A stretch of 64,000 bases of DNA from an uncultured Actinomycetes bacterium (lineage in GTDB: Bacteria > Actinomycetota > Acidimicrobiia > Acidimicrobiales > RAAP-2), in the NCBI GenBank assembly GCA_903825035.1, contig CAIJYV010000022.1, positions 62,001-126,000 of the forward strand. Reading direction: 5' to 3'. The stretch's first letter is position 1; every line of letters begins with the position of its first letter. The notes beneath the pieces are model-generated. The model had not been told where the DNA came from. It searched no databases and saw only the letters and a list, made by a program, of their open reading frames with translations. Positions 1 through 12,182 of this stretch are shown here, in pieces. The translations under genes and the position numbers were made by a program.

Positions 1-39
1 CCCGTTCGCGCTAAGCGCCTGAAGGTCACCAGTTCATGA
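1..39 (+). CDS. C-terminal end of upstream gene, probably ABC permease (partial)
   Basis: Twelve codons run in frame from the window edge to a TGA at 37-39, giving a basic tail (PVRAKRLKVTSS). The stop overlaps the start codon of the next gene as ATGA, which suggests a translationally coupled operon. The following two genes are OppD/OppF-type ATPases, whose usual upstream partner is a DppC/OppC permease, and a short basic cytoplasmic tail fits that. The identity is inferred from context only. Confidence 0.5.
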   Translation, partial: PVRAKRLKVTSS

Positions 40-1004
40 GCACCATTCTCCAAGTCCGGGACCTCGAGGTCCAATACCAAACCCCGAATGGCCCCGCTCA
101 AGCGGTCAACGGAGTCAGTTTTGATCTAGCCGCAGGGGAATTCCTCGCGGTAGTCGGCGAATCGGGTTGTGGCAAGTCGACCATGCTCTTTGCTATCGCG
201 CAACTATTGGCCTATCCCGCTTCCCAGACCGGCGGACAGGTTCTTTTCGATGGCGTTGACTTAACGACGCTCGACGAAGAGGCGTTGCGACTACGTCGCT
301 GGCGCGACATCTCGGTCGTCATGCAGAGCGCCATGAATGCGCTGAATCCAACTTTGACTATCGGAGCTCAATTGGCCGATACCTGTCGGGCTCACACCAC
401 GTGGGACGATAAGCAAATTGCTGAGCGCAGTGCCGAAGTTCTAGCGATGGTATCGATTGATAAAGCGCACCTCTCGAGTTACCCATTCCAGTTGTCTGGA
501 GGTATGCGTCAACGAGCAATGATTGCGATGGCGCTACTACTCGAGCCGAAATTGATAATTATGGACGAACCAACCTCGGCCCTCGATGTCGTTGCGCAGA
601 AGTCGCTCATGCGCCAAGTTGAAACGCTCAGGCAGAAGCTTGGTTTCTCGGTCCTGTTCGTTACCCACGACATGAGCGTGGTCTCGCACTTCTCTGATCG
701 CCTTGCGGTTATGTATGCCGGAGAGATTGTTGAGTTGGGCGAGACACGTGAAGTTTTTGACCGACCGCAGCACCCGTACGCCACCGGACTCATGGAGGCG
801 TTCCCCTCCCTTTTGGGACAGGCCAAAGAATTAACCGGAATCCCTGGAAACCCTCCTTCACTCGTGAACCCACCCAAGGGCTGTCTCTTTGCTGATCGGT
901 GCCCCAAGGTGATGGAAATTTGTCGCGAGGAGGCGCCCGAGCTGGTGGCCAATGGCCCACACAGCGTTCGCTGCCACCTCGTGAACCCCAAGGTGCGGGC
1001 ATGA
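36..1004 (+). CDS. ABC transporter ATPase, OppD/DppD family
   Basis: This 322-residue nucleotide-binding subunit belongs to the peptide/nickel/oligosaccharide importer family. Walker A (GESGCGKS) lies near residues 41-48, the ABC signature LSGGMRQR near 153-160, Walker B (LIIMDEPTSALD) just after it and the switch His (FVTHDMS) near 210. The C-terminal extension with paired cysteines (CLFADRCP...C) is typical of OppD/DppD, where it has been linked to an Fe-S cluster in some members. The start overlaps the upstream stop (ATGA) and its own stop overlaps the next gene (ATGA), so the set is one operon. Family sequence alone does not distinguish peptide from oligosaccharide import; the GH20 gene downstream favours a sugar. 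Confidence 0.92.
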   Translation: MSTILQVRDLEVQYQTPNGPAQAVNGVSFDLAAGEFLAVVGESGCGKSTMLFAIAQLLAYPASQTGGQVLFDGVDLTTLDEEALRLRRWRDISVVMQSAMNALNPTLTIGAQLADTCRAHTTWDDKQIAERSAEVLAMVSIDKAHLSSYPFQLSGGMRQRAMIAMALLLEPKLIIMDEPTSALDVVAQKSLMRQVETLRQKLGFSVLFVTHDMSVVSHFSDRLAVMYAGEIVELGETREVFDRPQHPYATGLMEAFPSLLGQAKELTGIPGNPPSLVNPPKGCLFADRCPKVMEICREEAPELVANGPHSVRCHLVNPKVRA

Positions 1005-1966
1005 GCGAAACGATTCTCAAGGTCAGCAACCTCACTCGCACCTTCCGAGTGGGCGGATTCCGTTCTCGGGGAACGCTGCACGCTATTGACGACGTGAGCT
1101 TTGAGGTTCGTGCGGGCCAGATTGTGGCCCTCGTGGGGGAGTCTGGTTCGGGAAAATCAACTATTGCCCGAGTGCTGGCGGGACTCTACCCACCCACCTC
1201 TGGAACAATTGAGTTCGAGGGCCAGGTATTGGGTAAGAGAATGACTCGTCAGGTGCGAGGTCGAATGCCTATGGTTTTCCAGGACCCTTTCGGTTCAATC
1301 AACCCAGTGCTTCGAGTTGGCCACGCACTCCATCGCTCCTTGAAGCTCCACCGTCGCGACCTTTCCAAAGTCGAACGCGATCAAATTGCCATCGAGTTGG
1401 CAAACGCAGTCGGCCTCGTTCCCGGTGAAGAGGTATTGGCACGATTCCCTCATGAACTTTCTGGCGGCCAGCGTCAACGCCTCGGTTTCGCACAAGCACT
1501 GGCATCAAAACCCGCCTTAATTCTGGCCGATGAACCTGTTTCGATGCTTGACGTCTCAATCAGAATCGGTTTGCTAAACGTGATGCGCAAGCTCCGCGAT
1601 GAGCAAGGCGCGTCGTTGCTCTACATCACGCACGACCTCGCTAGTGCTCGCTACGTAGCTGACCGCATGATTGTTCTCTACGCCGGGCGAATCGTCGAAG
1701 AGGGTACGAGCGAAGAGGTAATCGCAGCGCCGAAGCACCCGTACACCAAGCTCTTGATGTCAACCGCTCCGGACCCCCGCTTGCCGCTTGGTGGCAGTGA
1801 GGGCGCCGATGACCTCGGCGAGCCACCGAAAGTTATTGATCCCGTGCCTGGGTGTCGTTTCGCCCCTCGGTGTGCACTCGCCACTGATGAGTGTCGGACT
1901 ACCGATCCGGTGAAGGTCCAAATTTCTCCGACTCACCAAGTCGCCTGCTTTGCAGTAAAGGGCTAG
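1001..1966 (+). CDS. ABC transporter ATPase, OppF/DppF family
   Basis: This is the second nucleotide-binding subunit of the importer, 321 residues. I start it at ATG 1001, where it overlaps the OppD-type stop (ATGA), rather than at the longer frame-open start at 899 that would lie inside the previous gene. Visible motifs are Walker A (GESGSGKST), the Q-loop (MVFQDPFGSINP), the signature LSGGQRQRLGFAQAL, Walker B (LILADEPVSMLD), the switch region (LLYITHDLASA) and the C-terminal CRFAPRC motif. OppD and OppF-type ATPases act as a heterodimer under two permeases. It is followed after 2 nt by a cytoplasmic hexosaminidase, so the transported substrate may be a GlcNAc-containing oligosaccharide. 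Confidence 0.92.
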   Translation: MSETILKVSNLTRTFRVGGFRSRGTLHAIDDVSFEVRAGQIVALVGESGSGKSTIARVLAGLYPPTSGTIEFEGQVLGKRMTRQVRGRMPMVFQDPFGSINPVLRVGHALHRSLKLHRRDLSKVERDQIAIELANAVGLVPGEEVLARFPHELSGGQRQRLGFAQALASKPALILADEPVSMLDVSIRIGLLNVMRKLRDEQGASLLYITHDLASARYVADRMIVLYAGRIVEEGTSEEVIAAPKHPYTKLLMSTAPDPRLPLGGSEGADDLGEPPKVIDPVPGCRFAPRCALATDECRTTDPVKVQISPTHQVACFAVKG

Positions 1967-1968
1967 CC

Positions 1969-3486
1969 ATGAACCTACTTCCGCAGCCCCAAGAGGTAAC
2001 TCTGCTCGAAGGCACTACGACGCTCCTGTCTCCGGTGCGAATCAACGCCCGCGAGTGGAGTGACGAGGTTGAGGCTTGGGCCGCTGACCTGTCGAAATCC
2101 ACGATGATTGATTTTGAACTCGTCGAGAGCGAAGATGCCGACATTACCTTCGGTTTCGCTACTGACATAGAGGGTTATCGCCTGACCATTGACGGACAGG
2201 TCCGCATCATGTGCTCATGGTCAGATGGGGCTGTGCAAGCCCTGACTACCTTGCGCCAACTTGGGCCCACAGACTTATTTTCGGTAGAGCGGAGCCCGCT
2301 AACAAGTTTCGAGTTACCAAATTGTGAGATTGAAGACTGGCCCGAATTCGGTTGGCGTGGCGCCCACCTCGACGTGGCACGGCACTTTTGGGACGTTGAA
2401 ACTGTTGAGAGATATGTGGACCTGATGGTGATGCACAAACTCAACGTTCTTCACCTTCACCTGAATGACGATCAAGGTTGGCGAGTCGAAATTCCGAACT
2501 GGCCGAAATTGACTTCGATAGGAGCCTGGCGCAATGGCTCGCCAGTGGGGCACGAAGATGATGACGTACGCGACAATGTCCGTCACGGTGGTTTCTATAC
2601 GCGTGATGATCTTGAGCGTATATCTCGCTACTGTGCCCTGCGAGGTGTTGCGGTAGTACCAGAAATTGATCTACCGGGGCACGCCCAAGCCGTTCTGGCG
2701 GCCTATCCCGAACTTGGAAACAATCCCGAGGCACAGCTTGAGGTGTGGCAGCACTGGGGCATCTCCGATCATGTTTTGAACGTGAGTGACGAGGCGTTGC
2801 AGTTCGCCGTCGAAGTCGTCTCGTACGTGGCCAGTATTTTCCCGAACGCAACTGTCCACATTGGTGGCGATGAATGCCCAACTACCGAGTGGGAATCCAG
2901 CCATTTGGCCCAAGCGGTAATGACCGAGCACGGTTTCGAATCTGCTCAAGAATTGCAAGGGCTCTTCACTTCGAGGCTTTGTGAGGTACTCGAAGAGGCG
3001 GGCCACCAGGTCATCGCGTGGGATGAGGTCCTAGACGCCGAAGTTCCCGAAACGACAGTTATTGCGGCGTGGCGTTCAGTCGAGAAGGGGATTGAAGCAG
3101 CCGAGCGAGGGCACTATGTCGTGATGATGCCTATGCAATACGTCTACTTCGACTGGCTATCGAGTGATCAACCCGGTGAACCGATTGCCGTTCACCCGGC
3201 CCCCTTTGTAACTACTTGGGAAAAGACCTATTCCTTCGAGGTAGTACCAACCGAATTGGACCCGACGCTTCGAAAGCAGATTCTCGGCGCTCAAGCGCAA
3301 TTGTGGACCGAGTACATCACTTCTCGAGATCGTATGGATTACATGGCCTTCCCGCGGCTATCTGCTTTCGCTGAAGTCGTTTGGGGCACCAGCGGCGATC
3401 TGGATTCCTTCCGTCCACGGCTCGAGGCTCATCTTGAGAGGCTTAAGTCGGCGGGTGTCAAATACCGCCCTCTCGATACTCAGTGA
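1969..3486 (+). CDS. Beta-N-acetylhexosaminidase, GH20
   Basis: This 505-residue glycoside hydrolase removes terminal GlcNAc or GalNAc by substrate-assisted catalysis. The GH20 catalytic pair is in HIGGDECP (Asp301-Glu302). The N-terminal GH20b domain (about residues 1-115) is followed by the TIM barrel with the usual GWRGAHLDVARHFW, HLHLNDDQGWR and PEIDLPGHAQA strands. No signal peptide is visible, so it should act in the cytoplasm on imported oligosaccharides. I chose ATG 1969 because AAAGGG lies 5 nt upstream and the gene follows the previous stop by 2 nt; a longer frame would overlap the ATPase. It shares a GTGA overlap with the next gene. Whether the substrate is chitobiose or another hexosaminide cannot be read from the sequence. 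Confidence 0.93.
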   Translation: MNLLPQPQEVTLLEGTTTLLSPVRINAREWSDEVEAWAADLSKSTMIDFELVESEDADITFGFATDIEGYRLTIDGQVRIMCSWSDGAVQALTTLRQLGPTDLFSVERSPLTSFELPNCEIEDWPEFGWRGAHLDVARHFWDVETVERYVDLMVMHKLNVLHLHLNDDQGWRVEIPNWPKLTSIGAWRNGSPVGHEDDDVRDNVRHGGFYTRDDLERISRYCALRGVAVVPEIDLPGHAQAVLAAYPELGNNPEAQLEVWQHWGISDHVLNVSDEALQFAVEVVSYVASIFPNATVHIGGDECPTTEWESSHLAQAVMTEHGFESAQELQGLFTSRLCEVLEEAGHQVIAWDEVLDAEVPETTVIAAWRSVEKGIEAAERGHYVVMMPMQYVYFDWLSSDQPGEPIAVHPAPFVTTWEKTYSFEVVPTELDPTLRKQILGAQAQLWTEYITSRDRMDYMAFPRLSAFAEVVWGTSGDLDSFRPRLEAHLERLKSAGVKYRPLDTQ

Positions 3487-4472
3487 GTGACGCAGAAGTT
3501 CTCGCCATTATGAAATCCACCTTGCCTGAGGGGCAAGGCAGCTCTTACGGCTCAATAGAACGACTGTCCCTCCATGAAGTGGCTGAAAAGTTAGCTTTGT
3601 GCGGACTTACTCAATTGGATGTCGAATTGGCAGTTGCGAATTGGGAAACGTTTAAAACACAAACCGAGTTAGTTGATGCATTAGCCGCCATTGATACGTG
3701 GCTGACAATTAATTTTTCTGCGGTCGAGCCAGATTTTCCAATCTGGGACGACTTGTTTGACCAGGGTGAGAGCGGAAGGTATCTATACCTCTACGCCGCC
3801 GTGCTTGGAATTGACCGCGTGTGCGATTACTTCGATTCAATTGGTGTGACGCAATTATTCAAGTCGGATTCCCTGCAAATTGTTTCGCGCCACGTGGCAA
3901 TATACAAAAAGAAGTGGGGCGAACTTGGTACGGATGCCGGCTGGTGGCTGCTGTTGATGCTTCGCGGTGTTTTATTCCAGTGCGGTTCATTGCAATTTCA
4001 TCGTATGAGAATCGGCATAAGCAATCTCGCGCCCAACCCTTGGTATAGCGAGCAACAGAGTGGCGAACTGGGTGAGGGATTTGCTCGTGGCGATGAAGCG
4101 TTTGGGATTCACATCCCTCAAGGCACCAATTTGAGCCCAGCGGCAATTGAGGATTCGTTCGCTCTGGCAACCTCGCAATTCGATTCAATTTGGCCGAATC
4201 CGAAGCGACGGCTGTTCACCCTTCAGTCATGGCTGCTCGATCCCCAATTGCAAGATTTCCTTAGTTCTGATAGCAACATTGTGCAGTTCCAGAACCGTTT
4301 CACCCTGCTTGATAATGCTCCAATTGCCGATGAGGACACGTTGGAGTTTGTCTTTCGAAGCCCCAAGACCGAACTCGCAGATTTACCGAGGCGCAGCTCC
4401 CTGGAGAGAGGGATTTTGAACCTTTTGGACGCGGGCGGCCACTGGCACGCCACTTGCGGGTGGCTCAAATAG
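3483..4472 (+). CDS. Acyltransferase-domain protein, NAT_N/GNAT_C type
   Basis: The 329-residue product resembles the two-domain family made of an N-terminal N-acyltransferase helical domain and a GNAT-like C-terminal domain (PF18082/PF18164 as I recall them). Supporting segments are RGVLFQCGSLQFHRMR, the HIPQGTNLSPAAIEDS stretch, QSWLLDP and a terminal GGHWHATCGWL. The biochemical role of this family is poorly known. The GTG start overlaps the GH20 stop (GTGA), so the two are translationally coupled, which hints at a role in handling acylated or amino sugars released by the hexosaminidase. It looks AT-richer than its neighbours by eye. Family assignment is from memory of the domain pattern, and function is unknown. 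Confidence 0.7.
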   Translation: MSDAEVLAIMKSTLPEGQGSSYGSIERLSLHEVAEKLALCGLTQLDVELAVANWETFKTQTELVDALAAIDTWLTINFSAVEPDFPIWDDLFDQGESGRYLYLYAAVLGIDRVCDYFDSIGVTQLFKSDSLQIVSRHVAIYKKKWGELGTDAGWWLLLMLRGVLFQCGSLQFHRMRIGISNLAPNPWYSEQQSGELGEGFARGDEAFGIHIPQGTNLSPAAIEDSFALATSQFDSIWPNPKRRLFTLQSWLLDPQLQDFLSSDSNIVQFQNRFTLLDNAPIADEDTLEFVFRSPKTELADLPRRSSLERGILNLLDAGGHWHATCGWLK

Positions 4473-4498: not shown

Positions 4499-4511
4499 TG
4501 TGAAATTTACA
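4499..4511. promoter_or_regulatory. Imperfect palindrome, possible DeoR operator 1
   Basis: TGTGAAATTTACA is a palindrome with one mismatched pair, in the 83-nt gap upstream of the DeoR-family gene. It resembles the second palindrome 17 nt further downstream. DeoR-family repressors often bind paired sites in their own promoter, so autoregulation is plausible. Confidence 0.4.
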
Positions 4512-4527
4512 TAATTCGGGTTGAAAA

Positions 4528-4544
4528 ATGTGAGAAAATCACAT
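4528..4544. promoter_or_regulatory. Inverted repeat, possible DeoR operator 2
   Basis: ATGTGA-GAAAA-TCACAT is a perfect inverted repeat with 6-nt arms and a 5-nt spacer, 11 nt before the DeoR start codon. Its position just before the gene fits an operator that blocks transcription. It also resembles a CRP-type TGTGA-N-TCACA half-site pair, but the 5-nt spacer is shorter than the usual 6. Confidence 0.5.
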
Positions 4545-4555
4545 AGTCTTTTCCA

Positions 4556-5329
4556 ATGGATTCCAGAGCCCGTCGGTCCACTATCGCTGACAAACTGCGC
4601 GTGAGCGGGGAGGCCTCAATCGTTGCCCTCGCTAAGGAGTTCGGCACCTCCGAAATGACAATCCGACGAGATCTCGACGCGCTTGAGCTCGAAGGGCTCG
4701 CCCGTCGATCCAGGGGTGGCGCCATTTCAGTTCAGAGTCGCTCCTTTGAACCGCCAATCTTGCAGCGCGCATCCCACATGTCGGACTCGAAGTGCCGAAT
4801 CGGACAAGCAGCGGTTTCGCTCCTCCGTAAGGACGAAACGGTCATTATCGACGTTGGTTCGACCACCCAGTCAATGGCGCGAGTGATTCCTGAAGATCTC
4901 AACCTCACGGTGATGACGAGTTCGTTGCTCGTGGCCTCGGAATTGAGTAGCAAGCAAAAAGTCCGGACCGTCGTGAGTGGCGGGGTAGTGCGTTCGGGCG
5001 AACTATCGCTGGTTGGTTCACGTGCTGTCGAGGCCTATCACGACCTCAATTGCGACACGGCTTTCATTGGTGTCGCTGGAGTTAGTGCGGCGAAGGGCTT
5101 AACTGAATACAACCTCGACGACTCAGCGGTGAAGCGTGCTGCCATGGCAGCCAGTAGACGCATTGTTGTTTTAGCCGACGCTACGAAACTCGGGACCGTG
5201 GCGCTCGTAACCGTGGCCCCAGTAATCAAAATTGACATCTTGATTACCGATGCCGCACCCGATAATCCAGAAGTTCAATTGATTGCCAACATGGGTATTG
5301 AGATCATGTTTGTCAATCCCAACGAATAG
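4556..5329 (+). CDS. DeoR-family transcriptional regulator of sugar metabolism
   Basis: This 257-residue repressor has an N-terminal DeoR helix-turn-helix (residues about 5-57, with FGTSEMTIRRDLDALELEG as the recognition region) and a C-terminal phosphosugar-sensing domain with VIIDVGSTT and the closing DAAPDNP segment. DeoR proteins usually respond to a phosphorylated sugar intermediate. Palindromes at 4499-4511 and 4528-4544 lie directly upstream. The gene leads a same-strand cassette of BtpA, FGGY kinase and SDR genes, which are its likely targets, and the preceding importer/GH20 operon may be co-regulated. The inducer is unknown. Confidence 0.9.
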   Translation: MDSRARRSTIADKLRVSGEASIVALAKEFGTSEMTIRRDLDALELEGLARRSRGGAISVQSRSFEPPILQRASHMSDSKCRIGQAAVSLLRKDETVIIDVGSTTQSMARVIPEDLNLTVMTSSLLVASELSSKQKVRTVVSGGVVRSGELSLVGSRAVEAYHDLNCDTAFIGVAGVSAAKGLTEYNLDDSAVKRAAMAASRRIVVLADATKLGTVALVTVAPVIKIDILITDAAPDNPEVQLIANMGIEIMFVNPNE

Positions 5330-5338
5330 GAGCAGTAC

Positions 5339-6139
5339 ATGTCCCGATTTAAAAATATCTTTCCAAATGTGGCTAAGCCCCTCATTGCCATGGCTCACGT
5401 TCCGCCACTGCCCGGTACGCCACTCTTTGACGAAAAGGCTGGAGTCCAAGGCCTCATTGACCATGTCAAGCGCGACACCGAGTTATTACTCGCCGGCGGC
5501 TTCGACGCAATTTTGTTCTGCAACGAAGGTGACCGACCATACAAACTGAACGCTGGGCTAGAGGCAGCAGCGGTCATGACCCGAGTCACCACCGAGTGCA
5601 AGCCCACCGACCGCCCCTTTGGCGTGGACTACCTCTGGGACGCCCAATGTGCTCTCGCAATCGCCGTTGGTACCGGTGCGAGCTTTATGCGCGAAGTTAT
5701 TACGGGAGCGTGGGAATCAGACATGGGCCCGTGGAACCCCGACGCCGCCAAGCTTTTGCGTGATCGGCGCTCATTTGGTCGCGATGACCTCGGAATTTTT
5801 GCCAACATAACCCCAGAGTTTGCCTCCAGCATCGGAAATCGCACCCCGGCGCAAGTCGCTAAGTCGACGGTGGTCTCATCACTCGCCGACGTAATTTTGG
5901 TCTCTGGCCCCATGGCCGGTTCCGAACCCGATGTTCGCACGGTTGCCGAAGTGCGTGAAGCACTGGACTCCAGTATTCCTGTTCTGTTGAATACGGGAGC
6001 TAAGGCTGGCACCATCAAAGAATTCTTTAAGTACGCCGACGGTTGCATCGTGGGATCGGATCTCAAGCGCGACGGTTACACCTGGAATGAAGTTGACCCT
6101 GAGCGCGTGAAGCGCTTCGTTGACGCTGCTCGGTCGTAG
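5339..6139 (+). CDS. BtpA/SgcQ-family TIM-barrel protein
   Basis: This 266-residue protein belongs to COG0434 (BtpA, SgcQ). Characteristic segments are IAMAHVPPLPGTP near the N-terminus, the FCNEGDRPY strand, GVDYLWD, the FMREVITG segment, and VLLNTGAK followed by the ADGCIVGSDLKRDG loop near the C-terminus, a TIM-barrel phosphate-binding arrangement. BtpA was named for photosystem I accumulation in cyanobacteria, but in heterotrophs the family sits in sugar operons such as E. coli sgc and its reaction is not established to my knowledge. AGGAGCAG precedes the ATG. It lies 9 nt after deoR and overlaps the kinase start by one base, so it probably acts on an intermediate of the same pathway. Confidence 0.85.
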   Translation: MSRFKNIFPNVAKPLIAMAHVPPLPGTPLFDEKAGVQGLIDHVKRDTELLLAGGFDAILFCNEGDRPYKLNAGLEAAAVMTRVTTECKPTDRPFGVDYLWDAQCALAIAVGTGASFMREVITGAWESDMGPWNPDAAKLLRDRRSFGRDDLGIFANITPEFASSIGNRTPAQVAKSTVVSSLADVILVSGPMAGSEPDVRTVAEVREALDSSIPVLLNTGAKAGTIKEFFKYADGCIVGSDLKRDGYTWNEVDPERVKRFVDAARS

Positions 6140-7623
6140 TGCCACGCTCTCTGTTGCTTGGTATTGATCTCGGGTCTTCCGGGGTAAAGGCCATTTTGCT
6201 CGACCCCGACCGGGGAATTGTCGCCTCAGCTTCACACGATGTAGATCTCTTTAGTGATCGCGTGGGCTGGGCCGAGGCAGATACCAATCAATGGTGGGCC
6301 GCGGTAGTAGCGCTCGTTCCACAATTGCTCACTGAAGCAAAAGCAACGAAAGCAGAAGTAGTCGGCATCGCCACCTCGGGCATGGTCCCGGCGGTAGTTT
6401 GCGTGGATGAAGCGGGAAACCCCTTGCGGCGAGCGATGCTGCAAAATGATGCTCGCGCCACCGCCGAAATAACTGAGTTGCGCGCGAACCTTGCCGACAC
6501 TGATCTGTTGAAATTAACTGGTTCAATTCTCAGCCAGCAGTCGGTTTCCCCAACGGCACTTTGGCTGGCTCGAAACGAGCCAGCGGTGTGGGAAAAAACC
6601 AAGTACTTGGTTGGTTCGTACGACTGGTTGTTAATGAAGATGGGTGCTTGCGCTCACGTAGAAAAGAACTGGGCACACGAAAGCGGTCTCTACGACCTTG
6701 AATTAAATCCCTTGTCACAAGTCACCGCCGCCACCGGCGTTAAGTGGCCCGAGCTGGCGGAGGTGAAGGCACCTTCCACTCCGGTGGGTCAACTATCGAG
6801 TGACGCTGCAGCTCAATTAGGGCTTGAAATGGGGACTCCGCTGTTTGTTGGTGGTGCCGATCACGTTTTGTCGGCCTACGGCGCAGGCTTGGTGAACGCG
6901 GGGGATGTGCTGGTCAAGCTTGGCGGAGCGGGGGACATCCTTGCCGTGACTGATGAGATTTTCGTTGATTCACGCCTCTATCTCGACGCACACCCTATTC
7001 CTGGGAAGTGGTTGCCAAATGGTTGCATGGCCACCTCCGGATCGCTGCTTCGATGGGAGCAGGCCCTGTTTGGCGGCGCTTCGTTGACTGAACTCGACGA
7101 TCAAGCACAGAACTCCGAACCAGGAGCCCTCATTGCCCTGCCGTATTTCTTGGGTGAAAAGACCCCGCTGCACGACCCTGACCTTCGAGGAGTACTAGTG
7201 GGCCTTCACCTAGGCACAACTCGTGGTGACATCCATCGATCATTCCTCGAGGCGATTGCCTACGGGTTCAGAAGCCATTTCGAAATCCTGGCTCAGGGCG
7301 GAATTCACATTGGCAGCGTCCGAATCACCAACGGGGGGTCGAAATCACGGCTATGGCGTGAGATCTTGGCCGATGTCCTGAATCGCGATTTGATCTCAAT
7401 TATCAACCACCCAGGGGCGAGTTATGGCGCTGCGGTAATGGCCGGTCTTGGCAGTGGAGTCATCAAAGACTGGTCTTACGTGGCCGGTTCGCTCGAGCAG
7501 GGCGAAATCATTTCTCCAAATCCCGACAACGTGGCTCGCTACGCTGAGCGGTACGAAGAGTTTGTGGCCTTGACTGCAGCCACAACAGAATTTTCACATT
7601 TATTAGCTAGGAGCAAATCATGA
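6139..7623 (+). CDS. FGGY-family carbohydrate kinase (xylulokinase-like)
   Basis: This 494-residue sugar kinase starts at GTG 6139, one base inside the preceding stop. The N-terminal ATPase fold shows GIDLGSSGVKAILLD, the central region carries the sugar-binding GGADHVLSAYGAG segment and the C-terminal domain has the ITNGGSKSRLWREILADVL signature near residue 400. FGGY kinases phosphorylate xylulose, gluconate, glycerol, ribulose, erythritol and related polyols. It resembles xylulokinases, but the substrate is not clear. It sits between the BtpA-like gene and an SDR dehydrogenase (ATGA overlap), an oxidise-then-phosphorylate arrangement typical of polyol catabolism. Confidence 0.9.
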   Translation: MPRSLLLGIDLGSSGVKAILLDPDRGIVASASHDVDLFSDRVGWAEADTNQWWAAVVALVPQLLTEAKATKAEVVGIATSGMVPAVVCVDEAGNPLRRAMLQNDARATAEITELRANLADTDLLKLTGSILSQQSVSPTALWLARNEPAVWEKTKYLVGSYDWLLMKMGACAHVEKNWAHESGLYDLELNPLSQVTAATGVKWPELAEVKAPSTPVGQLSSDAAAQLGLEMGTPLFVGGADHVLSAYGAGLVNAGDVLVKLGGAGDILAVTDEIFVDSRLYLDAHPIPGKWLPNGCMATSGSLLRWEQALFGGASLTELDDQAQNSEPGALIALPYFLGEKTPLHDPDLRGVLVGLHLGTTRGDIHRSFLEAIAYGFRSHFEILAQGGIHIGSVRITNGGSKSRLWREILADVLNRDLISIINHPGASYGAAVMAGLGSGVIKDWSYVAGSLEQGEIISPNPDNVARYAERYEEFVALTAATTEFSHLLARSKS

Positions 7624-8384
7624 GTTCACCAATCGCCGCCGTTACCGGTGCTGGATCTGGAATTGGCAGAGCCATCGCCTTAGAACTATCGCGACGGGGC
7701 TACTTCGTTGTTGTGACCGATATTGACCTCGGCGCTGCCACCGTGGTAGCCACCGAAATTGGAGCGGCGCAAGCGTTGAAACTCGATGTACGTGACCCTC
7801 AGCAATGCGAATCAGTCGTTACTGAAATCGTGGCTGAGCACGGTGCGCTCGATGTGTGGGTGTCCAATGCTGGCGTTTCAAAGATGCAGCGCTTTGTAGA
7901 CATTTCTCCCGAAGATTTAGCTTTCAACTTCGAGATCAACACGTACGGTGTTTTCTATTGCGGACAAGCGGCCGCTCGAGCGATGATCAAGCTTGGGAAA
8001 AGGGGCCGAATTATTAACACCGCCTCCATGGCCTCCAAACAAGGTCGCGTACCATTTCTGGCTGACTATGTCGCATCCAAGTTCGCGGTGCTCGGGCTCA
8101 CACAAGCTATGGCCTTTGAACTCGCACCTCATGACATTCGAGTCAACTGTGTTTGCCCTGGGTTCGTGGCTACGCCAATGCAGACGAGAGAGTTGGCCTG
8201 GGAGGCCGAGCTGAGTGGCTCGACTCCGGAAAAGGTCAAGCAGGGTTGGATTGATGCCACGCCATTGGCCCGGGTGCAGACGCCAGAGGATGTGGCCAAA
8301 GTGGTGGGGTTTCTGACCTCCGAAGACGCCGAATTCATTACCGGAGAGGCAATTTCCGTTAATGGTGGCGCTTATATGGACTAG
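7620..8384 (+). CDS. SDR-family NAD(P)-dependent oxidoreductase
   Basis: This 254-residue classical short-chain dehydrogenase has the cofactor motif TGAGSGIGRA near residues 9-18, the NAG motif (VSNAGVS) near residue 83, and the catalytic Ser and YVASK Tyr-Lys pair near residues 137-155. The end (ITGEAISVNGGAYMD) is standard. Many homologues are sorbitol, ribitol or acetoin dehydrogenases. The start codon overlaps the FGGY kinase stop (ATGA). In this cassette it may oxidise a sugar alcohol to the ketose used by the kinase; that is inference. Confidence 0.9.
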   Translation: MSSPIAAVTGAGSGIGRAIALELSRRGYFVVVTDIDLGAATVVATEIGAAQALKLDVRDPQQCESVVTEIVAEHGALDVWVSNAGVSKMQRFVDISPEDLAFNFEINTYGVFYCGQAAARAMIKLGKRGRIINTASMASKQGRVPFLADYVASKFAVLGLTQAMAFELAPHDIRVNCVCPGFVATPMQTRELAWEAELSGSTPEKVKQGWIDATPLARVQTPEDVAKVVGFLTSEDAEFITGEAISVNGGAYMD

Positions 8385-8402
8385 GAAATCAATAAAAAGT
8401 AG

Positions 8403-8408
8403 TAAATT
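8403..8408 (+). promoter_or_regulatory. -10 element candidate (TAAATT) of first surface protein
   Basis: TAAATT lies 7 nt before the GTG start codon at 8416, and no Shine-Dalgarno is visible, so the transcript may be leaderless. No clear -35 is seen. Confidence 0.4.
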
Positions 8409-8415
8409 AAGAGTC

Positions 8416-10218
8416 GTGAAAAATCAAATTTCAATTGGACGGCTTTTTTCGGTTCCCCTCGTTGCGCTCTTAATTGCGGTGAACGGATTCGTATTGCTGG
8501 GCACTCCCGCTACCGCGACTGGAACGGTGACCACCTACAGCCAATCGGCGGTGATCAATCCACCCCCCGCAGGGAGTTTCACTGGCTCAGCGGGTGGCGA
8601 CGCGTGGAGTGTCAGCTTGTCGCGTACAAATGTTTACATGGTCTTCCACGGCGCCAATCTGACCCTCATGTGTCGCGTTCAGGCAACGGCAGCTAGTTGC
8701 CCAGGATTTACGGTGCCAGCTCTTGTTACCGATGGGAACGGCGGAACATTCAAAGTCGGCGCATCGCCAAAGAGCTGGATTGATGATGCGAATCAAAAGC
8801 TCTATATTTTTGCCACCCAAGCTTCGAATACTCAAAGCGGAGTCGTGTGTGTGGACCTTTCCAACCCCGCTTCGCTATATTGCGGTTTCACTCCACTCGC
8901 CGCTGCCGGCGATGCGTCGACGGATACCTTTGGCGGCATTTCAGTTCCTGTTCAAGTTGGAACCAAGTGGTACGCATTTAACACGGTTTCTGGAGTAACG
9001 ACCGGCCAGAAGAATTCACTTATGTGTTTCGATATGGCAACCATGGCGGCTTGCTCAGGTGAGCCATACGCCATTGATTACGGAATCACCGCTATGCCAT
9101 CTTCGGTCTATTACAACCCTGGCGTATTGGCTTTGGGGGCCAAAATCATTGTGTCGGCGACGGGCTCCGATTCCGTGGCCAAAACTTCCTGTTTTGACAC
9201 TGTTACTCAGGCTGAATGTGCCGGAAACTTTCCCTTTACAGCGCCAACAGGTGCATCAGGCACTCCTTACCCCACGCTTGACTCGTCGGGCACCTACACC
9301 GGCTTTTGCTACTACGTCTCGACTCCGGCCTGCTTCGACTTAACAGGCGCTTCGGTTGCCGCACCTACCGGAATGGCGAGCATCCTGAGTCCGATTTACT
9401 TTGTAAACGGCAACGGGTATGTCGTCCTTGGAACTCACTTGTATGTGCCGTATAACACTGGTCTTTCTGTCAAATGCTTCGATTTCGCTTCGAATAGCGG
9501 CTGTGCCAACTTCCCTCACGTCATGACGAATATGAACCTCTTCTATTCGGTTAATTTCGACCCGTTTGAGCCCACTTGCCTTTGGGCGGCGGCCGATAAT
9601 GGCTCGCAACAGATTCAGAGCTTCGATGCGTACACGGGCGGACTCTGCGGCTCGTCGGGAATCATTGTTCCGTTGAGCACATTTGTCAACCCTGATCCGG
9701 TGTGTCAACCTGCTACCTACTCGTCTTTGACCATCACTGATCCCGCACCGAGTGCCTACACGGGCGGAACTGTTCAGTTCCTTGACTCATCTGGAAACCC
9801 AATTTCGTCCATCGCAACACAACCAATTGACTCGACTGGAAGTGTCGATCTGAGTTCGCTAGGTCTCGAATCGCAACTGGCGTTGCCGCAAGTCAAGATC
9901 GAGCTTCCCGGCGCCCCAGCGGGTACGGTTTCGGTTTCGGTGTCATGGACCGCAACATACGACACGGCTTGCACCACGAACGGTCAAATTGCCGTTGACC
10001 CAAGTACCGTGACCACAACTACAACCACAACCGCGCCAACCACGACAACAACCGCTCCGGGGGCAACCACCACCACGACTGCACCAACCACGACCACTAC
10101 ACAGCCCCTTGCCTTTACTGGCTCGAATACCCGTCAAAACGCCCTTGTAGCCATTGACTTGTTGGGCGGGGGCCTCGTGGCCATGCTTTTCGTGCGCAGA
10201 CGCAAAGTACTGAAATAG
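8416..10218 (+). CDS. Secreted repeat protein with LAFTG wall-anchoring signal (copy 1)
   Basis: The 600-residue product has an N-terminal signal peptide (MKNQISIGRLF, hydrophobic run, TPATA cleavage region near residue 34). A body follows with recurring paired-Cys units of the form C-aromatic/V-D-x(4-8)-C, for example CVDLSNPASLYC, CFDMATMAAC, CFDTVTQAEC and CFDFASNSGC, possibly blades of a beta-propeller. Next come an Ig-like stretch near residue 430, a Thr-rich linker (about residues 533-563), LAFTG at 565-569, a transmembrane helix and RRRK. LAXTG is the class E sortase motif, so covalent wall attachment is likely. I start at GTG 8416 rather than an upstream frame-open codon inside the SDR gene, because the paralogue starts in the same way (GTG-AAA-AA). 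Function is unknown. Confidence 0.85.
   Translation: MKNQISIGRLFSVPLVALLIAVNGFVLLGTPATATGTVTTYSQSAVINPPPAGSFTGSAGGDAWSVSLSRTNVYMVFHGANLTLMCRVQATAASCPGFTVPALVTDGNGGTFKVGASPKSWIDDANQKLYIFATQASNTQSGVVCVDLSNPASLYCGFTPLAAAGDASTDTFGGISVPVQVGTKWYAFNTVSGVTTGQKNSLMCFDMATMAACSGEPYAIDYGITAMPSSVYYNPGVLALGAKIIVSATGSDSVAKTSCFDTVTQAECAGNFPFTAPTGASGTPYPTLDSSGTYTGFCYYVSTPACFDLTGASVAAPTGMASILSPIYFVNGNGYVVLGTHLYVPYNTGLSVKCFDFASNSGCANFPHVMTNMNLFYSVNFDPFEPTCLWAAADNGSQQIQSFDAYTGGLCGSSGIIVPLSTFVNPDPVCQPATYSSLTITDPAPSAYTGGTVQFLDSSGNPISSIATQPIDSTGSVDLSSLGLESQLALPQVKIELPGAPAGTVSVSVSWTATYDTACTTNGQIAVDPSTVTTTTTTTAPTTTTTAPGATTTTTAPTTTTTQPLAFTGSNTRQNALVAIDLLGGGLVAMLFVRRRKVLK
10012..10104 (+). repeat. Thr-codon low-complexity tract (copy 1)
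   Basis: Runs of ACN codons with occasional GCN/CCN encode the Thr-rich wall-spanning linker just before LAFTG. The near-repetitive DNA could vary in length by slippage. Confidence 0.85.
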
Positions 10219-10316: not shown

Positions 10317-10322
10317 TTGGGC

Positions 10323-12182
10323 GTGAAAAAAATCTACACCTTGAATCGGTTCTTGGGGATAGTAGCGGTCGTACTGCTCCTCGTTTCTAACGCAGTCGCT
10401 TTTTCCGGCAATGCCGCTCAGGCCACCGGAAACGTCACTTCGTATACTCAATCCGCAGTGATTACGCCACCGCCGGCCTCAAGCTTCGCGGGTGCCGCGG
10501 GTGGAGATGGTTGGGGAGTATCTTTCACGCAGGACAAGATTTACAACATCTTTCACCACAACAGTTATGTTTCAATCAACTGTCACATTCAAGCAACGGC
10601 GGCCATTTGCCCCAGCTTCCCATTGCGCGTGCGCGATTCCAACAATATTGACTACGACTCGACCGGCTCGCCCTCGATGTGGATCGACCAAGCTAACCAA
10701 AAGCTCTATACCTACGCAACCTATCCAGTTACCAACCAAGCTGGCGTTCTCTGTATTGACATCGCAAATCCGGGCACACCAAACTGTGGTTTTACCGCGC
10801 TCACCGCCGCTGGAGATTCCCTGCCTTCGCCATCACCGTTCATCTTCTCAATGGTTTCACCAGCGATGTTTGTCGGAACAAAGTGGTATGCCTTCAACTA
10901 CTACACCACTAATGCGCCAACCGGAACGCAAGACACTTTGATGTGTTTCGACACGGCTACCTTGGCGGCGTGTCCCAGTCAGCCCTACTCCTTTGATTTA
11001 GGAACCACCAACATCGCCCTTATGAAGCCACCGAATGGTTCCATTGCCTTTGGAACAAAGATGTTCTTTCAGACGATGACAAGCACGACGACCGGTTTTG
11101 TCTCTTGCTACGACACCGCCACTAACGCTGAGTGTGCCGGAAACTATCCGTTCGCTGAAACCTTGGACAGCGTGAGTGCGTACGCGCCAGCGCCATTCCC
11201 AATCTTGGACAACACCGGCGCTTACGTTGGCTACTGCATCACTGGCGCCACATTCAACTGCTACGACATGACTGGCAACACGATGTCTCCTCCGTCGGGA
11301 TTCCAAGCAGCTATGCCAGCGCACGACCAGGCCTGGGCTGGAAACGGCTACGTAATTCTCGGCACTCGTCTATACGTACCTGATCACACAATTTGGACCA
11401 TGTCTTCGCAGGGGCAAGTTGATTGTTACGACTTCTCAGCACAAGCCGGATGTGCGAACTATCCGCTAACGATGGCCAATCAAAACGGAACCTATACCGT
11501 GAATTTTGACCCGTTCTACCCGACTTGCTTGTGGGTGAATGCGGACTCCGGATCCGCACAAATTCAGAGTTTCGATGCGTATACGACTGGCGCTTGTGGC
11601 TCATCGGGAACAATCGTTCCTTTGAGCACCTTTGTAAATACCGATCCAACCTGCATGCCCGCAACATACACCTCGCTGACCGTGACAGACCCAGCGCCTT
11701 CTGCGTACTCGGGTGGCACTGTTCAGTTCCTCGACTCTTCCGGGAATCCAATCGTTGGCATCCCAACCCAAGACATCAATGCCACAACTGGCAGTGTCGA
11801 TCTCACTTCGCTCGGACTTGAATCTCAGCTTGCCCTGCCGCAAGCCAAAATTTCTTTGCCAGGGGCTCCGGCAGGAAACGTGACTATTTCGATGGCGTGG
11901 ACGGCAACTTATGACTCGGCCTGCACGACGAATGGCCAAACGGCGGTAGATCCAAACACCACGACAACCACCACGACAACCACCACAACCACCACAACGA
12001 CTTCGACAACCACCACCGTGGCATCAACGACCACAACAACAGCTCCAGCGACCACCACTACGACACAGCCCCTTGCGTTTACCGGTTCGAATACCCGTCA
12101 AAACGCCATGGTTGCGGTGGACATGTTGGCCGGTGGATTCGTGGCGATGCTGTTCGTTCGCCGCCGTAAGTCACACAGTTAA
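10323..12182 (+). CDS. Secreted repeat protein with LAFTG wall-anchoring signal (copy 2)
   Basis: This 619-residue paralogue of the preceding gene has the same architecture: signal peptide, paired-Cys repeat units (CIDIANPGTPNC, CFDTATLAAC, CYDTATNAEC, CYDFSAQAGC), an Ig-like domain with the shared LTVTDPAPSAYSGGTVQFLD segment, a Thr-rich linker, LAFTG at about 584-588, a membrane helix and RRRK. The C-terminal halves are much closer to each other than the N-terminal halves, as expected for a tandem duplication with divergence in the exposed region. It is probably anchored to the wall by a class E-type sortase, which is not in this window. I prefer GTG 10323 over TTG 10317, because -10-like TAGAAT lies 6 nt upstream. 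The ligand or role is unknown. Confidence 0.85.
   Translation: MKKIYTLNRFLGIVAVVLLLVSNAVAFSGNAAQATGNVTSYTQSAVITPPPASSFAGAAGGDGWGVSFTQDKIYNIFHHNSYVSINCHIQATAAICPSFPLRVRDSNNIDYDSTGSPSMWIDQANQKLYTYATYPVTNQAGVLCIDIANPGTPNCGFTALTAAGDSLPSPSPFIFSMVSPAMFVGTKWYAFNYYTTNAPTGTQDTLMCFDTATLAACPSQPYSFDLGTTNIALMKPPNGSIAFGTKMFFQTMTSTTTGFVSCYDTATNAECAGNYPFAETLDSVSAYAPAPFPILDNTGAYVGYCITGATFNCYDMTGNTMSPPSGFQAAMPAHDQAWAGNGYVILGTRLYVPDHTIWTMSSQGQVDCYDFSAQAGCANYPLTMANQNGTYTVNFDPFYPTCLWVNADSGSAQIQSFDAYTTGACGSSGTIVPLSTFVNTDPTCMPATYTSLTVTDPAPSAYSGGTVQFLDSSGNPIVGIPTQDINATTGSVDLTSLGLESQLALPQAKISLPGAPAGNVTISMAWTATYDSACTTNGQTAVDPNTTTTTTTTTTTTTTTSTTTTVASTTTTTAPATTTTTQPLAFTGSNTRQNAMVAVDMLAGGFVAMLFVRRRKSHS
11957..12066 (+). 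repeat. Thr-codon low-complexity tract (copy 2)
   Basis: ACN-codon repeats encode the Thr-rich linker of the second surface protein. The tract is slightly longer than that of copy 1, so length has changed since duplication. Confidence 0.85.

Follow-up and report, generated by a model that had tools for sequence, protein, structure and literature searches.

The cassette and its conservation

The 64,000-nucleotide stretch analysed here (the window), which belongs to an uncultured bacterium of the Acidimicrobiales, contains at positions 4556-8384 four intact genes, all on the plus strand, for a DeoR-type regulator, a BtpA/SgcQ family protein, an FGGY carbohydrate kinase and a short-chain dehydrogenase/reductase (SDR) (Table 1). 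An earlier note on this DNA had described four co-directional and tightly spaced genes, with BtpA between the regulator and the kinase and the SDR in last position, and this layout is borne out by the open reading frames (ORFs) and by Pfam and NCBIfam matches, with gaps of 9, -1 and -4 bp between consecutive genes. The window genome (1,418,209 bp in 37 contigs) carries one BtpA gene and two FGGY genes, so that, by our own arithmetic, the chance occurrence of an FGGY gene within 3.6 kb on either side of BtpA would be an event of about 1%. The four-gene cassette is confirmed as real, and its core as not accidental.

The window BtpA passes both curated cut-offs of its family (TIGR00259, 203.5 versus 153.4 bits; PF03437, 210.7 versus 30), and the kinase those of its two Pfam domains (FGGY_N, 128 versus 28.8 bits; FGGY_C, 87.4 versus 27). 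At the level of more specific functions, the kinase falls under the cut-off of the xylulokinase XylB equivalog (TIGR01312, 315.4 versus 380.25) and is filed as an FGGY kinase only, the SDR falls under those of named polyol SDRs such as L-iditol 2-dehydrogenase and acetoin reductase (NF005472, 182.7 versus 338; TIGR02415, 218.3 versus 304.35), and the regulator falls under the NCBIfam equivalog cut-offs, with no named DeoR-family regulator assigned. The best solved relatives of the kinase and the SDR are 3ifr (324 bits) and 3ak4, a quinuclidinone reductase (228 bits), both of which are nearer to the kinase and SDR of the Rhizobium cassettes, where they are again the best solved relatives (600 and 367 bits, respectively). 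In a survey of the FGGY family, 3IFR is filed under xylulose kinase (PMC3245297).

When genome contigs were searched with the BtpA of the window, 63 loci were obtained, 35 of which (L003-L035, L038 and L060) we group as Acidimicrobiia-type. Where the flanks are long enough, these loci hold DeoR in 33/34, FGGY in 34/34 and SDR in 32/33 cases, the exceptions being L005, without DeoR, and L031, without SDR. Judged by BtpA, the closest relatives are assemblies of uncultured actinobacteria, many of which carry the label Acidimicrobiaceae (97% in L003 and L004). The four-gene core is also present in Chloroflexi, on plasmids of Rhizobium, Salipiger, Shinella, Labrenzia and Thermus, and in genomes from the phylum of locus L065 (L145, L150 and L154). 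The earlier note had considered a lack of conservation in related genomes as an argument against its reading, and the cassette turned out to be conserved both in the Acidimicrobiia-type loci and in other phyla. Moreover, the core genes diverge jointly (Mantel r 0.79-0.89, with 0/2000 permutations as high, among 27 hand-picked cassettes and with a contribution of shared descent). Outside the Acidimicrobiia-type loci, extra genes accompany the core, such as an inositol-monophosphatase-like gene in many Chloroflexi and a HAD phosphatase gene in some Alphaproteobacteria. None of the core lies beside BtpA in 8/63 loci (L036, L037, L041, L049, L054, L057, L062 and L065, with L049 ending at the end of its contig), which indicates that BtpA on its own does not imply the cassette, and its presence over the cut-off in 10/25 genomes (the window genome and 24 others of the same genus) indicates an accessory gene. 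A tandem pair of BtpA genes was also observed at a contig end (L144:7336-8944).

A literature search, with preprints and most subscription papers outside its reach, found no publication joining BtpA with an FGGY kinase or a carbohydrate kinase operon, and the relevant part of a genome report merely names the BtpA family (PMC11433714). As far as such searches show, the cassette would be a real, widely conserved and undescribed variant of polyol operon. The enterobacterial ribitol/arabitol operons likewise join a repressor, an SDR polyol dehydrogenase, an FGGY pentulose kinase and an importer in one unit, whereas in the present cassette the kinase is XylB-like and the type of importer varies. 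To our knowledge, operons of the rbtDK/dalDK type contain no BtpA.

Table 1. Coordinates in the window of the cassette, its predicted operator and the genes immediately upstream
Feature	Position	Strand	Remarks
Opp/Dpp-type importer ATPase D, uptake module	36..1004	+	Remaining importer genes lie upstream of the window
Opp/Dpp-type importer ATPase F	1001..1966	+	Start at ATG 1001 is our choice
GH20 beta-N-acetylhexosaminidase, no evident signal peptide (judged by eye)	1969..3486	+	Glyco_hydro_20 1e-106; ATG 1969 is our choice
NAT_N/GNAT_C acyltransferase-like protein	3483..4472	+	PF18164 4e-36, PF18082 6e-8
Second, weaker operator copy (8/10)	4499..4513	.	30 bp upstream of the first copy
Palindromic operator TGTGAGAAAATCACA, probable DeoR autoregulatory site	4529..4543	.	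12 bp before the deoR start
DeoR/GlpR-type regulator	4556..5329	+	257 aa; Pfam DeoRC 2e-45, HTH_DeoR 6e-13
BtpA/SgcQ family TIM barrel, type I signature	5339..6139	+	266 aa; TIGR00259, model, signature residues
FGGY carbohydrate kinase, XylB-like, under the XylB cut-off	6139..7623	+	494 aa; FGGY_N and FGGY_C
Short-chain dehydrogenase/reductase (SDR)	7620..8384	+	254 aa; adh_short_C2 9e-59

The BtpA barrel and its two signature types

The structure model suggested in the earlier note gave, with high confidence (predicted local distance difference test 94.4; predicted template modelling score 0.93), an eight-stranded phosphate-binding triose-phosphate isomerase (TIM) barrel of the group of RPE, TrpF and HisA, with a best VIA match of Z 18.7 and a root-mean-square deviation of 3.3 over 217 aligned residues. 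Foldseek and VIA neighbours include DHPS, PcrB/GGGPS, KDPGal aldolase, ThiE/TenI, RPE, TrpC, TrpF, HisF, MJ1099 and HPS, with no single nearest enzyme by structure and the 50 VIA matches listed spanning Z 16.8-18.7, and a sequence search found no solved BtpA structure (best match E 0.91). Profile comparison with hhalign matches BtpA to TrpF over beta6-beta8 only, a weak match between crude profiles (E between 3e-5 and 2e-2, varying with the subset and the direction); some of the sets contain poor rows, as at the top of the RPE set, and only the BtpA-TrpF lines were used. A set of conserved polar residues lies near the C-terminal strand ends of the model.

A quick tree of 106 BtpA rows, without bootstrap and with some long branches, separates a 72-row FGGY/PTS half (PTS, phosphotransferase system) from the PfkB rows with an SH-aLRT of 99; six loci (L049, L059, L064, L109, L144 and L160) were left out beforehand, and 23 near-identical Acidimicrobiia-type rows were thinned. 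Nearly all BtpA rows share N62, P67, G95, R118, G130 and G190, and K243 is kept in 72/72 rows of one half and in 28/33 of the other; the two halves differ at E63, Y68, D101, N156, E160, N218 and T219. The window BtpA shows the signature that we call type I (N62, E63, Y68, D101, N156, E160, N218 and T219), whereas type II has D156/K160/G218 in place of N156/E160/N218.

Both types can be compared with the neighbouring kinases in 105 aligned rows, L065 having been left out before this count. Type I rows are accompanied by an FGGY kinase in 50 cases, by a PTS in one and by no kinase found in 14; type II rows by a PfkB kinase in 20 and by none found in 12; and the eight rows of unclear type by FGGY in three and by none in five. 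When the types are assigned from residues 156 and 218, the PfkB label is absent from type I rows and the FGGY label from type II rows. These labels give precedence to FGGY: a PfkB-profile frame is additionally present in L055, of type I, and in L113, of unclear type. A non-random choice of 56 out of 90 BtpA places over the cut-off, hand-picked mostly for flank length, gave 53 aligned rows (FGGY 15, PfkB 16, none 22). BtpA directly adjoins the kinase in most loci that have one. The simplest reading of a BtpA type that follows the kinase family would be an action on the phosphorylated product of the neighbouring kinase, which makes a phosphorylated sugar the probable substrate of BtpA.

The sgcXBCQAER genes of E. 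coli fit this reading, because a type I BtpA (SgcQ) lies there beside a PTS, which would carry out the phosphorylation of the sugar. However, the E. coli genes include neither FGGY nor SDR, and encode the epimerase-like SgcE and the hydrolase-like SgcX. In E. coli, SgcQ is described as putative; a recent work (PMC13343008, 2026) offers a pentitol model for sgc as a hypothesis, and reports that sgc mutants grew without defect on 190 carbon sources. SgcX-like and SgcE-like genes accompany BtpA in two of our loci as well (L057 and L062, the latter also with an FGGY gene and a ribose-type importer), and no PTS appears among the genes identified in these sgc-like clusters. In four type II loci (L074, L075, L078 and L111), BtpA occurs with a PfkB kinase, a ribose-type ATP-binding cassette importer, phosphotriesterase-like and glutamine-amidotransferase-like proteins and, in some of them, TenA or M20, and these loci represent another orphan BtpA gene cluster, distinct from the four-gene cassette.

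Uptake genes and the predicted operator

Outside the Acidimicrobiia-type loci, the core usually adjoins a CUT1 sugar importer, and loci of this type hold regulator, SDR, FGGY kinase and importer together. Four substrate-binding proteins were tried, and for three of them (L045, L067 and L079) the best match among solved structures is 5iai, a structure with ribitol at 1.6 Å (PMC8468352). The CUT1 binding protein of L045 is nearest to 5iai both by sequence and by fold, whilst that of L079 reaches 696 bits to 5iai and shares 69% and 77% identity with those of L066 and L077, respectively. In plasmid records with a close 5iai-like binding protein, the BtpA gene lies 5.8-11.6 kb away in 55/55 cases, all of them Rhizobium plasmids; 57 of 69 BtpA records, highly redundant and mostly from R. 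leguminosarum, entered this count, and two of the 57 (CP050556.1, Salipiger) show no close 5iai-like protein. Such linkage indicates that at least the Rhizobium form of the cassette likely takes up a pentitol or a pentitol-bearing compound. In two Rhizobium loci (L167:226-10786 and L077:464-10316), the genes of the 5iai-like importer continue into genes for a cysteine hydrolase, an isochorismatase-like protein and an allophanate hydrolase, and the L167 run additionally carries a cytosine deaminase, GGT and an amidohydrolase.

New in this analysis is a palindromic operator before deoR, which follows the 15-bp pattern TGTGA-N5-TCACA and is unique as an exact match in the window genome. Among 35 deoR upstream regions, the window included, 14 keep ten of the ten arm bases and 13 keep nine, against 8/1750 shuffles with nine and none with ten. 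The motif was defined on the same sequences in which it was then counted, a selection that the shuffle control understates, and the genome-wide count and the fixed position depend less on the choice of motif. This position is -28/-29 in 25/35 regions and -59 in six more, and in several relatives a further copy lies 30-31 bp before the first. No operator with at least 9/10 arm bases precedes the importer, GH20 or ROK/SIS genes in the first 20 kb of the window and the 10 kb upstream of it, and no shared operator-like palindromes were found in other phyla. Judging from these sequence patterns, autoregulation of the four-gene unit by DeoR is probable. CRP-type sites have six spacer bases; the arms of the operator resemble them, with a spacer of five and not six, and a CRP-like regulator is conceivable.

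The 5′ side of the cassette contains, on the same strand, gatA-like and gatB-like genes (names from our reading of the ORFs), ROK and NagB-II-like SIS genes (L002:4483-6279), a complete Opp/Dpp-type importer 3′ of these two, and the GH20 and NAT_N/GNAT_C genes; no NagA over the cut-off was found in the window genome. Among the 23 Acidimicrobiia-type loci with full flanks, uptake is represented by Opp with GH20 in 17, by Opp alone in one, by an APC permease in three, by CUT1 in one and by none in one, and no locus combines two types, so that the core is the constant part and the importer the variable one. The Opp/GH20 genes are one of at least three interchangeable uptake modules, and their position suggests, without proving it, that they deliver the substrate to the core in the lineage of the window. 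On the 3′ side follow two repeat-rich proteins and then an ilvD-type gene. The former are tandem paralogues (8362-10218 and 10317-12182), each about 620 aa in length and containing long runs of Thr, an LAFTG-like C-terminus and then a hydrophobic stretch and a basic tail, which in our own reading resemble wall-anchored proteins; Pfam and NCBIfam give no match to the first. As a separate observation, no full HisA/HisF was found in the window genome (best 26.9 bits, partial), whereas 24/24 other genomes searched match strongly, a possible sign of histidine auxotrophy or of an assembly gap.

Proposed pathway and alternatives

We hold it slightly better than an even chance that the cassette regulates itself and serves the catabolism of an acyclic, pentitol-type polyol, with BtpA acting on a phosphorylated ketose, and polyol catabolism is likely as the class of pathway. 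In the route that we infer, the SDR would turn the polyol into a ketose by oxidation, which the FGGY kinase would then phosphorylate, and the type I BtpA would act on the ketose phosphate, most likely through isomerisation, epimerisation or bond cleavage, leading to the pentose-phosphate pathway. DeoR would repress the unit from the tandem palindromes before its own gene and would probably be released by a sugar phosphate, as is known of DeoR-family regulators. Uptake is swappable, with CUT1 in most phyla, and Opp plus GH20, an APC permease or CUT1 in Acidimicrobiia-type loci. The sugar or polyol pathway of the earlier note stands as far as a conserved sugar/polyol cassette is concerned, whereas oxidation followed by phosphorylation is still deduced from the protein families. 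That proposal is now sharpened by the importer evidence, in which the ribitol-bound 5iai points to pentitols, and by a BtpA type that tracks the kinase family.

Several data weigh against a pentitol route. The evidence for ribitol stems from Rhizobium, where the cassette BtpA shares about 48% identity with that of the window, and the window importer is of the Opp type, not CUT1. The binding protein of Thermus ranks the trehalose/maltose binder 1eu8 first and 5iai second, and the APC permeases of some loci do not suggest a polyol. Kinase and SDR score under the specific NCBIfam cut-offs given above, and type I BtpA occurs without a nearby kinase at L036, L037 and L041. Finally, the classical ribitol route needs just a dehydrogenase and a kinase, which leaves the role of BtpA unexplained.

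The likeliest alternative, improbable as we consider it, is an N-linked sugar alcohol or conjugate as the substrate. The SDR would then produce an Amadori ketose by oxidising C2 of the N-bound chain, ribityl or another, the FGGY kinase would phosphorylate C5, and BtpA would split the product into an amine and a pentose phosphate, like a reversed TrpF/HisA, with type II acting likewise on PfkB-phosphorylated N-ribosides. Two cysteine hydrolases, allophanate hydrolase, cytosine deaminase, GGT and an amidohydrolase near BtpA or its importer are consistent with such a substrate, as are the TenA, glutamine-amidotransferase, phosphotriesterase-like and M20 proteins that accompany type II BtpA, the adenine deaminase gene adjoining the BtpA of L125, the APC and Opp importers of some loci, and the reported induction of the E. 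coli sgc operon on nitrogen-containing substrates (PMC13343008). However, outside Rhizobiaceae and Salipiger, no such hydrolases appear among the annotated neighbours of most cassettes, and the weak match to TrpF, which would also favour a cleavage of this kind, comes from crude profiles and is limited to the phosphate half, common to many barrels. A more general form of this idea, which makes the BtpA family the missing cleavage enzymes for phosphorylated N-linked sugars, seems more doubtful still: type I would act on 1-amino-1-deoxyketose-5-phosphates (into which an SDR together with FGGY or a PTS would convert ribityl conjugates or those of other N-polyols) and type II on PfkB-phosphorylated N-ribosides, the class being set by N156/E160/N218 versus D156/K160/G218.

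Slightly below the N-linked substrate in our estimate, BtpA could be a non-enzymatic partner that stabilises or tunes another protein, as the cyanobacterial BtpA, which binds and stabilises glutamyl-tRNA reductase (PMC11449065). The immediate vicinity of BtpA and kinase in most loci that have one is in keeping with such a role, but the polar set at the C-terminal strand ends and the two types following the kinase family look like an active site, and the window protein lies far under the cyanobacterial equivalog cut-off. The cyanobacterial BtpA, linked to the stability of photosystem I and of the reductase, belongs to the same Pfam family, whereas the window lacks a photosynthesis context, and a role of the window BtpA in photosystem I biogenesis, the unrelated function contemplated in the earlier note, is rejected by a score of 139.7 bits on NF045918 (cut-off 400).

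Marginally less likely again is a hexosamine pathway of this lineage, in which Opp would import a beta-N-acetylhexosaminide, GH20 would cut it in the cytoplasm, the ROK and NagB-II-like proteins would handle the hexosamine, and SDR, FGGY and BtpA would take the other half or a hexosamine derivative. The arrangement of the 17/23 full-flank relatives with Opp and GH20 directly upstream, never alongside an APC or CUT1 module, agrees with it, together with the ROK and NagB-II-like genes 5′ of the importer and the lack of a NagA over the cut-off, but 5/23 full-flank relatives are without both GH20 and Opp, in the other phyla examined neither GH20 nor a co-directional Opp importer was found to accompany the cassette, and the operator stands before deoR only.

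In any case, BtpA/SgcQ proteins form a widespread family without an established reaction, for which the one mechanism met is the stabilising role in cyanobacteria. Under the preferred pentitol reading, the cassette would reduce the question of BtpA to a single phosphorylated sugar within a pentitol-type route, and it supplies conserved residues, a predicted operator, solved proteins of the cassette type (3ifr and 3ak4) and a ribitol-bound importer protein (5iai), which makes the orphan BtpA/SgcQ reaction testable.

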